This document shows, piece by piece, positions 32,865 through 34,978 of a DNA stretch of 36,691 nucleotides. Source of the stretch: Komagataeibacter xylinus NBRC 15237 (lineage in GTDB: Bacteria > Pseudomonadota > Alphaproteobacteria > Acetobacterales > Acetobacteraceae); the NCBI RefSeq assembly GCF_001571345.1, contig NZ_BCTP01000030.1, positions 1 through 36,691 of the forward strand. Direction: 5' to 3'. Both the position numbers and the translations under genes were made by a program. The stretch's first letter is position 1. Each line of letters begins with the position of its first letter. The notes below the pieces were generated by a model. It was not told the DNA's origin and did no database searches. It saw only the letters and a list, made by a program, of their open reading frames with translations.

Positions 32865-33509
32865 TCAGGGCAAGATAATGTCCTGCCCGCGCAGGGCGGC
32901 GAGCAGGGGCAGCAGCGGCAGGCCCATGATGGCCGACTGTTCCCCCTCGATACGCGAGAAAAGCTGGATTCCGCGCCCTTCAAGCCGGTAGCACCCGACA
33001 CAGGACAGAATCGCCTCGCCCTCGGCTGCCAGATACCATTCAAGAAAGGTTTCACTGAACGCGCGCATATGCAGCACGGGACAGGCGACATGGTGCCAGA
33101 CCTCGTGGCCATCACGCAGCAGGCACACCGCCGTGTGCAGCACATGCGCCCGGCCGCGCAGGCGCCGTAACTGCGCGCGGGCCGTGTTGCGGTCGGCGGG
33201 CTTGTCGAACCATTCCTCCCCGCATGACAGGATCTGGTCCGCGCCAATCACCACCGTGCGCGGTGCAACCTCGACCGCACGGGCCTTGGCGCGGGCCAGT
33301 TCAAGGGCTGCGGCACTGGCATCGTGCCCGGCGGCAAGCATGGCCGCGCGAATGGCGTGTTCATCCACATCCGCTGCCATGAACCGGGCAGAAAGCCCCG
33401 CCGATTCCACCAATGCGCGCCGCGCGCCCGAGCGGCTGGCAAGTACTATCGGTGGCGACTCCACCTGTAATGGGGCGGCCTTTAGTACTAAACTGGAGTC
33501 GTCTGGCAT
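32865..33509 (-). CDS. maf: Maf-like nucleotide pyrophosphatase
   Basis: House-cleaning nucleoside triphosphate pyrophosphatase of the Maf/YceF family, hydrolysing dTTP, UTP or modified nucleotides. The N-terminal IVLASRSGARRALVESAGL is the substrate-binding signature. PRTVVIGADQILSCGEEWFDKPAD carries the catalytic Asp region, and EGRGIQLFSRIEGEQSAIMGLPLLPL is the C-terminal signature. I use the ATG at 33509 (214 aa), preceded by GGAGAG; an ATG at 33539 has no such site. It is divergent from hemE across the candidate replication origin. Confidence 0.92.
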   Translation of the reverse strand: MPDDSSLVLKAAPLQVESPPIVLASRSGARRALVESAGLSARFMAADVDEHAIRAAMLAAGHDASAAALELARAKARAVEVAPRTVVIGADQILSCGEEWFDKPADRNTARAQLRRLRGRAHVLHTAVCLLRDGHEVWHHVACPVLHMRAFSETFLEWYLAAEGEAILSCVGCYRLEGRGIQLFSRIEGEQSAIMGLPLLPLLAALRGQDIILP

Positions 33510-33553
33510 CGCGCTCTCCGTACTGCGGAAGTGAAACATTTAAATCGGGGCTC

Positions 33554-33586
33554 TGGAGTACTGGGGTACATGGGGACAGTACTCCA
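33554..33586. repeat. Perfect 10-bp inverted repeat in the oriC candidate
   Basis: TGGAGTACTG (33554-33563) and CAGTACTCCA (33577-33586) are exact complements around 13 bases. Each arm contains a GTAC. A third GTAC sits in the spacer. Confidence 0.7.
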
Positions 33587-33681
33587 AACAATTCTGTGCC
33601 GTACCGAGTACCGTGGACAACGTGTACCCAGCCCATTTCGGTGAGTTGTACACAGGCTTATGGCGGTACATCCGGGATAAC

Positions 33682-33715
33682 TTTCCGACTCCGTGGGAAT
33701 CCTTGGAGTCGGAAA
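33682..33715. repeat. Perfect 11-bp inverted repeat with GANTC in each arm
   Basis: TTTCCGACTCC (33682-33692) and GGAGTCGGAAA (33705-33715) are exact complements around 12 bases. Each arm contains a GANTC site, so adenine methylation could mark both arms. Confidence 0.7.
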
Positions 33716-33916
33716 CGGTACACACTGTGGGGAAAACGGGGTACATTTTCGGAAACATGGGTACCCCGTGATCCACAGCACTAAAAGAACATCAACAAAT
33801 TTCTTTCTCTTTTCTTTTATTGTTTTGAAAGGGGCGCGCGCGCTGCGCCCTGCCCGCTATCCGTCGGCCCGAAAGTACGAGATAGTCCGGCCACAACGAA
33901 ACAGAACGACGGATCA

Positions 33917-34978
33917 ATGACACAAACACGCAAACCCCTGCTTGCCACCCTGATGGGAGAGGCGACCTGGCCCCCTCCGGTATGGCTGATGCGGCAGGCG
34001 GGCCGGTTCCTGCCGGAATTCCGGGCATTGCGTGAAAAGGCGGATTTCATAACGCGCTGCATGACCCCCGACATGGCGGTCGAGATCACGCTGCAGCCCA
34101 TCCGCCGTTTCGGCATGGATGGGGCTATCCTGTTTTCCGATATCCTCATCCTGCCCTGGGCCATGGGGCAGTCGCTGGAATTCGTGCAGGGCCGTGGACC
34201 TGTCCTGGGGGCCGTGCGCTCGCAGGCCGATCTCGACCGGCTTGACCCGGGCAGGGTGGCGCAGGCGGTTGAACCGGTCATGCAGACGCTGCGCAGGCTG
34301 CGGGCCATTGTTGATGGGCCGGAAGCGATCGGTCCGGCACGACCGGGGCAGGTGACGCTGATCGGCTTCGCGGGCGCGCCGTTTACGGTGGCGTGCTACA
34401 TGGTGGAAGGCCATGGCTCGCGTGAGTTCGAGGAAACCCGCAAGCTCGCCTATACCGATCCCGCGTTCTTTGACCGGCTGATCGACCTGCTCACCACGTC
34501 GACGGCGGATATGCTTTGTGCCCAGATCGAGGCCGGGGCCGAAGCGGTCATGCTGTTCGATAGCTGGTCGGGCCTGCTGCCACCCTCGCAGTTCCGCAAG
34601 CATGTGATTGAACCGGCAAAGCGCATCACCGCCATCATCAATGCCCGCCACCCTGGCGTGCCGGTCATTGGCTTCCCCCGGCTGGCGGGGCTGATGGCGG
34701 TTGAATACGGGCGTGAAACCGGCGTGAACGCAATGGCGCTCGATACCGGGGCGGACATGAAGGCCGTGGCCGACAGGGTGCCCGGCACGCTGGTGCTGCA
34801 GGGCAATCTCGACCCGATCCGGGTTCTGGCTGGCGGCGAGGGCATGCGCACCGAGGCGCGGGCCATCCGCGATGCCATGAAGGGCCGCCCGCATGTGTTC
34901 AACCTTGGCCACGGCGTCATTCCCACAACGCCGCCCGAGCATGTGGGCGACCTGATCAAGACCATCAGGGAGGTCTGA
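33917..34978 (+). CDS. hemE: Uroporphyrinogen decarboxylase
   Basis: Cytosolic heme-pathway enzyme that removes four carboxyl groups from uroporphyrinogen III to give coproporphyrinogen III. The N-terminal signature PVWLMRQAGRFLPEFRALR gives active-site Arg26 and Arg30. Asp75 in ILFSDILILP matches the key catalytic Asp of the human enzyme. The second signature is IGFAGAPFTVACYMVEG, and FNLGHGVIPTTPPEHV ends the protein. The length, 353 aa, is normal. The gene borders the candidate oriC as in other alphaproteobacteria. A HAD phosphatase starts 3 bases after its stop, and hemJ follows. Confidence 0.97.
   Translation: MTQTRKPLLATLMGEATWPPPVWLMRQAGRFLPEFRALREKADFITRCMTPDMAVEITLQPIRRFGMDGAILFSDILILPWAMGQSLEFVQGRGPVLGAVRSQADLDRLDPGRVAQAVEPVMQTLRRLRAIVDGPEAIGPARPGQVTLIGFAGAPFTVACYMVEGHGSREFEETRKLAYTDPAFFDRLIDLLTTSTADMLCAQIEAGAEAVMLFDSWSGLLPPSQFRKHVIEPAKRITAIINARHPGVPVIGFPRLAGLMAVEYGRETGVNAMALDTGADMKAVADRVPGTLVLQGNLDPIRVLAGGEGMRTEARAIRDAMKGRPHVFNLGHGVIPTTPPEHVGDLIKTIREV

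Follow-up and report, generated by a model that had tools for sequence, protein, structure and literature searches.

Methylation-controlled replication origins are known from m6A systems, namely Dam and CcrM. The oriC of E. coli carries about 11 GATCs in about 245 bp, and the origin of Caulobacter is hemE-linked. The CtrA pair motif is TTAA-N7-TTAA, and the sequence cut by RsaI is GTAC. Dam, hemimethylated oriC and SeqA are described in PMC13076061, and PMC6256690 reports from PacBio data that M.RsaI of R. blasticus 28/5 makes m4C at GTAC. One published acetic-acid-bacterium genome report places oriC near dnaA (PMC3751514). We recognised no report of GTAC or m4C at an origin of acetic acid bacteria in the sources covered, most subscription journals lying outside that coverage.

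The window analysed here is the whole stretch of 36,691 nucleotides (positions 1-36,691) of contig NZ_BCTP01000030.1 from Komagataeibacter xylinus NBRC 15237. Its maf-hemE gap holds an element that is very probably the chromosomal oriC of the acetic acid bacterium Komagataeibacter and that is packed with the word GTAC. Judging from sequence comparison, a DNA methyltransferase that stands alone, here called MTase2, probably has this array as its target, and the array may act on DNA replication as a chemical switch that has so far gone unnoticed. The location of oriC, the fixed array, its bare 4-bp unit and the presence of MTase2 in every array-bearing genome examined are computed results.

The locus resembles the Dam/GATC/SeqA system of E. 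coli in that the origin is packed with the palindromic 4-bp word of a solitary methyltransferase (here a putative target), at 11 GTACs in 207 bp, interleaved with DnaA boxes. The likeness is one of working only and not of membership. The word is GTAC and there is no GATC array (0-5 GATC against 6-15 GTAC per 450 bp in 24 origins), MTase2 is an N6_N4-family enzyme related to RsaI-associated phage enzymes and probably makes m4C rather than m6A, and a reader in the GTAC system is hypothetical. The locus shares with CcrM/GANTC of Caulobacter a solitary enzyme of the N6_N4 family and a hemE-linked origin, but MTase2 is a second, separate enzyme that lacks the RAMA domain present in the CcrM-like protein, whose gene coexists in the same cell. 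Unlike the CtrA-controlled origin of Caulobacter, the 24 origins contained no exact CtrA-type pair (two occurred with one mismatch), and none was found near 33.4-33.9 kb with up to one mismatch allowed. The connection to RsaI restriction-modification (Rhodobacter blasticus; cyanophage pairs) is that the MTase2 family is paired in phages with a gene annotated R.RsaI. Unlike the enzymes of that system, MTase2 is core in acetic acid bacteria, no RsaI-like neighbour was found in the loci searched, and its putative target is concentrated at oriC.

The main parts of the element and its surroundings are the following, unstranded unless a strand is given.

32865-33539, reverse strand: maf (Pfam PF02545)
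33917-34978, forward strand: hemE (Pfam PF01208)
33558-33832: oriC core, made up of the GTAC array, DnaA-like boxes and an AT-rich tract, on the evidence of GC skew, relocation and conservation
33784-33832: AT-rich tract, candidate unwinding element, 75.5% A+T, strongly conserved in the genus
33769-33777, forward strand: DnaA box TGATCCACA (Caulobacter G-box form), position conserved, sequence variable
33612-33620, reverse strand: DnaA-like box TTGTCCACG, two mismatches to TTATCCACA, neighbourhood conserved
33672-33680, reverse strand: DnaA-like box TTATCCCGG, GGATAAC conserved in the genus alignment
33726-33734, reverse strand: DnaA-like box TTCCCCACA, CTGTGGG conserved in the genus alignment
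33687-33710: GANTC (CcrM-type) sites at 33687, 33697 and 33706

An earlier note on this DNA had named the Caulobacter-type G-box, a second box, the AT-rich tract and several GANTC sites. The G-box and the tract are present as listed, and six GANTC sites start within 33403-33706, three of them in the gap. Weaker boxes with two mismatches are also present; one DnaA box in the gap has one mismatch and the others have at least two. Exact TGATCCACA is kept by part of the genus, and the rest carry TCATCCACA or a further diverged form.

The same note had proposed a candidate oriC here, and this identity is strongly supported, since the GC skew turns at the element and the skew flip moves with the element where it has been relocated. 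Because the stretch's own assembly is split into 156 contigs, skew was measured in sampled stretches of relatives, and the turn or minimum falls at the element, including the turn in a complete Komagataeibacter chromosome. In G014, a 2.95-Mb contig from the same genus, the turn is clear across the sampled stretches: all samples as far as 1.06 Mb had positive skew, and those from 1.2 Mb onwards had zero or negative skew. The last negative sample and the first positive one flank the element, at 2,928,540, and the turn is shallow within the surrounding 20 kb. The lowest cumulative skew samples of Gluconacetobacter diazotrophicus (G140), at 2.0 and 2.2 Mb, bracket the element at 2,138,651; the shallow minimum extends over a broad range, 1.2-2.2 Mb, and this genome gives weak support for oriC.

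Ten Bombella-group genomes had no array in the 900 bases upstream of hemE. We considered whether they have MTase2 without an array and rejected this, as the element is relocated and its signature pattern (described below) was found elsewhere in all ten. In the three that were measured, the relocated element lies 21-25 kb from hemE (G201:C1:228163-228370, L318; G167:C1:56042; G103:C28:887306), and the skew flips sharply at the element. These natural relocations are the strongest evidence for the origin. In G201 (Bombella apis) it is at the element, at 228.2 kb, that the skew changes from about -0.1 to +0.1, and hemE, at 203.0 kb, shows no such flip. The flip coincides with the element at 56 kb versus hemE at 77 kb in G167, and with the element at 887 kb versus hemE at 912 kb in G103.

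All 15 GTAC coordinates given earlier proved correct, and 11 of these words start within 33558-33761. The maf-hemE gap (33540-33916) contains 12 GTACs compared with a mean of 1.8 in dinucleotide-preserving shuffles, and none of 5000 such shuffles attained 12. The enrichment that had been claimed is real, although the expectation of fewer than one copy was slightly optimistic, the shuffle rate being about 1 per 207 bases. A related complete chromosome, sampled over 300 kb, had 0.86 GTACs per kb. The pattern GTAC-N(0-30)-GTAC-N(0-30)-GTAC had 15 forward matches in the strain's own genome, 7 of them within the oriC element. A second small GTAC cluster in this genome (C29:22534-22583) lies inside an open reading frame read as a putative Rrf2-type regulator.

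Sequences were registered on the anchor TTGTACACA with a GTAC 40 bases upstream, with a position tolerance of 2 bases. This registered 65 of 82 sequences, and the 17 unregistered ones were ten relocated genomes, four deep lineages (L071, L074, L097 and L098) and the variants L046, L057 and L065. GTAC was found at offsets -90, -82, -69, -47, -40, 0, +70, +93 and +113 in 63-65 of the 65 anchored sequences, with offsets -40 and 0 required by the anchoring rule and therefore 65/65 by construction. The individual GTACs are listed below.

33558-33582: core GTACs at 33558 (-90), 33566 (-82) and 33579 (-69), in 63, 65 and 65 of 65 sequences, and in 19/19 genus genomes
33601-33611: paired core GTACs, offsets -47 and -40 (GTACCGAGTAC), abutting a DnaA-like box; -47 in 64/65, -40 in 65/65 by anchoring
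33648-33651: core GTAC, offset 0, inside the DnaA-like box TTGTACACA (33646-33654); the anchor, 65/65 by construction
33718-33721: core GTAC, offset +70, 65/65
33741-33744: core GTAC, offset +93, 65/65
33761-33764: core GTAC, offset +113 (GGGTACCCC), 65/65
33624-33627: lineage-variable GTAC, offset -24, 19/19 in the genus and 26/65 in the wider set
33666: lineage-variable GTAC, offset +18, 19/19 in the genus and 20/65 in the wider set
33520: lineage-variable GTAC, offset -128, 19/19 in the genus and 22/65 in the wider set
33443-33446: outlying GTAC in the maf coding sequence, 19/19 in the genus
33485: outlying GTAC in maf, within the palindrome TTTAGTACTAAA, 19/19 in the genus
33875-33878: outlying GTAC just upstream of hemE, 19/19 in the genus

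Conservation, on which the earlier note had made its proposal depend, was seen at both levels: all 15 GTACs are intact in the 19 genus genomes, and nine keep a fixed spacing in 63-65 of the 65 anchored sequences of acetic acid bacteria. GTACs beyond the core occur in lineage-specific places. Three GTACs in 33443-33523 fall in the maf reading frame or at its start, and all 19 genus genomes have them intact. In the genus alignment of 33540-33780, all 44 GTAC columns were invariant, compared with 119 of the 197 other columns. TTGTACACA was present in 19 and GTACACAG in all of 20 aligned representatives. Two MTase2-negative genomes (L309 and L297) likewise carry a lone GGTACCCC upstream of hemE.

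GTAC was the most enriched 4-mer in 24 lineages, chosen as GTAC-bearing (250 seen vs. 41 expected, z 36.7), and the next, TACA (z 13.2), overlaps it. The flanks of these 250 GTACs held at most 0.13 bit at every position. Since they are almost without information, the unit is the bare 4-bp palindrome GTAC, and the GGTACA and GTACAC forms pointed out earlier do not amount to a motif. GTACs abut or overlap DnaA-like boxes at 33608/33612, 33646-33654, 33718-33744 and 33761/33769. DnaA boxes with at most one mismatch numbered 0-3 per origin in the 24 lineages.

A PF01555 search of 19 genus genomes yielded two methyltransferases common to all, the CcrM-like protein and MTase2. MTase2 is a stand-alone DNA methyltransferase of 296 aa encoded outside the window (G000:C8:3058-3945). 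It matched PF01555 (N6_N4_Mtase) with 147.7 bits, and its NCBIfam matches were weak. On the NCBIfam CcrM model, the CcrM-like protein scored 624 bits and MTase2 scored 67 bits, neither reaching the cut-off of 830. The motif TSPPYN was invariant in 22/22 aligned MTase2 sequences, and we take its TSPPY form to be typical of N4-cytosine enzymes. Relatives with solved structures are cytosine-N4 enzymes (8s9m, PvuII) and also adenine enzymes such as CcrM.

MTase2 was present in 50/50 named genomes tested (50 of 80 named loci) and in 190/395 genomes of the order (E 1e-30). A class-wide draw gave matches at E 1e-40 in 4 of 385 genomes, all four in Acetobacteraceae. Relatives with 50-54% identity are carried by two Paracoccus plasmids with no known origin role. 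The gene mltA adjoins MTase2 in 32 of 51 loci, and the loci without it are mostly from Acetobacter. With seven phage RsaI-like proteins as queries (E 0.1), no RsaI-like neighbour was found in 95 loci, a set that includes 19 CcrM-type and two plasmid loci and covers some genes twice. MTase2 is solitary in that no RsaI-like endonuclease gene lies beside it; an endonuclease that is unrelated or has diverged strongly would be beyond the reach of these queries. The enzyme of Acetobacter thailandicus (L371, G244:C1:408475) is 47% identical to that of Komagataeibacter, and the array is kept in this species. It retains TSPPY and much of the target region, and its sequence looks as if either a related enzyme had taken its place or it had changed fast while under constraint.

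The putative assignment of GTAC comes from phages. MTase2 is 43% identical over 258 positions to a methyltransferase of Synechococcus phage ACG-2014j whose gene overlaps one annotated as R.RsaI endonuclease, and Syn19 has the same annotated pair. Among 80 viral loci with a related methyltransferase, the DNA retrieved included a homologue of the R.RsaI gene in 50, and 49 of these homologues end within 60 bases of the methyltransferase start. The R.RsaI name is the depositors' annotation; the gene so annotated had no match in Pfam, NCBIfam or PHROGs, and none in plasmids. These pairs suggest that MTase2 methylates GTAC, the tie to RsaI running through their annotation and not through the sequence of M.RsaI. 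The mark at GTAC would probably be m4C.

We compared the occurrence of MTase2 and the array with the signature pattern GTACCGAGT-N(25-50)-TTGTACACAG, which was built from these origins. The signature was found in 130 of 395 genomes, once in each, and the reversed control in none. All 130 signature-bearing genomes were MTase2-positive, and 0/205 genomes without MTase2 had the signature. A pattern-independent test covered 80 signature-negative genomes across genera (38 of 60 with MTase2, 42 of 205 without), and hemE was found in 77. At least five GTACs were present in the 300 bp upstream of hemE in 18/36 MTase2-positive versus 0/41 MTase2-negative genomes. G186, whose contig begins inside the origin and has 15 GTACs there, was counted as array-positive. 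The 18 sampled MTase2-positive genomes (of 36) with no array at hemE were mostly deep and GC-rich. Because MTase2 without the array is common in such lineages, the enzyme probably predates the array. One of these 18, the crown genome G182 (L245, L430), had no array upstream of hemE or in the one 20-kb stretch searched.

In a hemE tree of 56 rows, the array marks a 36-row clade (support 100/99). It is absent from two rows inside this clade, G071 and G212, both of which are MTase2-negative. Outside the clade, G077 (L285, 6 GTACs) and G340 (L277, 5 GTACs) have separate smaller arrays and are both MTase2-positive, and G087, which stands beside G077 (82/89), has neither array nor MTase2. This tree shows five changes of the array and eight of MTase2; a 51-row tree gave a single array gain, and the addition of G077 and G340 raised this to five changes. 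No independent pair contradicts the link between array and MTase2. Several pairs show no difference, and the independent evolutionary changes are too few for the pair test to reach 0.05. The genome counts are likewise not independent, since array and MTase2 both follow the tree, and Fisher values computed from them carry no correction for shared descent.

The two exceptional rows are also nested inside in the DnaA tree, on long branches (fast-evolving DnaA), and G071 and G212 may be unusual for other reasons. Both retain the CcrM-like gene, with CcrM-model scores of 544 and 608 bits. G071 is a small-genome acetic acid bacterium. Its 800 bases upstream of hemE (L274, G071:C1:947700-949091) lack GTAC and contain 14 TTATCCACA boxes that have one mismatch or none, and the skew still turns near hemE. 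We rejected a small genome as the cause of array and MTase2 loss, given that both are retained in G070 and the Bombella group, whose genomes measure about 2 Mb. In the MTase2-negative genus g41 (L351, L352; G383, G212), the helix-turn-helix stretch of DnaA is shortened (KFERDHTTV) and the protein sits on a very long branch.

The reading we favour, and judge to be somewhat probable, is that the oriC GTAC array is the target of the stand-alone RsaI-type MTase2 and serves a Dam/GATC-like control of initiation, probably through m4C. A fuller version holds that in this family m4C controls chromosome replication, placed by a domesticated RsaI-type methyltransferase at a fixed set of GTACs overlapping DnaA boxes, and that the array disappears where the enzyme does, with the origin rebuilt around near-consensus DnaA boxes in at least one lineage; we see its chances as evenly balanced. 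MTase2 would place N4-methylcytosine at the oriC GTACs, and fork passage would leave them hemimethylated. An N4-methyl group inside the DnaA-like boxes might weaken or strengthen DnaA binding or recruit a hypothetical SeqA-like reader, and the C to be methylated in TTGTACACA would lie within the core of the box. The changed binding would delay re-initiation and so time or limit it. We infer that the GTAC mark controls initiation, and the 14 near-consensus boxes of G071 would make sense if DnaA binding at its origin had once relied on the mark. The earlier suggestion of a different initiator or regulator, one peculiar to acetic acid bacteria, came close, except that the best candidate is a DNA methyltransferase and not an initiator.

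The GTACs could instead be sites for an initiator or repressor that binds DNA and is particular to acetic acid bacteria, a functional analogue of CtrA or SeqA acting with no methylation, in which case MTase2 merely shares the clade. Their fixed spacing is as in a nucleoprotein complex, both the array and MTase2 largely follow the clade and have changed independently only a few times, and deep lineages have MTase2 without the array. A protein site, however, normally has an extended consensus, whereas the flanks here are nearly devoid of information at every position; the exact CtrA pair is missing from the 24 origins, and the array is lacking in both crown lineages that lack MTase2 (G071 and G212). 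We regard a binding protein of this kind as rather unlikely. Less probable still is that ordinary DnaA reads the GTAC sequences as variant boxes, with the GTAC word a by-product. The two-mismatch box TTGTACACA at 33646, present in 19 of 20 aligned representatives, could indeed be a DnaA box containing GTAC, and the GTAC-free origin of G071 has 14 close boxes where the 24 GTAC-bearing origins have 0-3, but most GTACs have no DnaA-box flanks. Moreover, the DnaA motif RDHTTV, presumably the base-contacting part of the protein, is identical in 30/30 genomes, GTAC-rich and GTAC-poor relatives alike. Altered DnaA specificity was rejected as a general cause on this ground, and the divergent DnaA sites proposed in the earlier note are unsupported as a general account for the same reason and for want of a flank consensus.

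If the array served to regulate hemE or maf and were no part of the origin, its place in the maf-hemE gap in most genomes read would be accounted for. The relocated element carrying the skew flip speaks strongly against this: in the three Bombella-group genomes the array lies far from hemE with the flip travelling along, and in G201 hemE and maf stay together with no array between them. We consider such a role hardly credible.

These results place the origin in industrially used producers of vinegar and cellulose. If methylation by MTase2 does govern the array, this would be a further independently evolved methylated origin that differs from the known ones in its word, its enzyme family and probably its chemistry. 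As a natural replicate, it could help to define which features such an origin needs. It would also be a case of a restriction-modification enzyme turned housekeeping replication factor, with natural losses open to study. In three deep relatives (L071, L074 and L098), GAGTC, a GANTC site, stands upstream of hemE in place of the GAGTAC of acetic acid bacteria, and this swap suggests a possible exchange between CcrM-type and GTAC sites.
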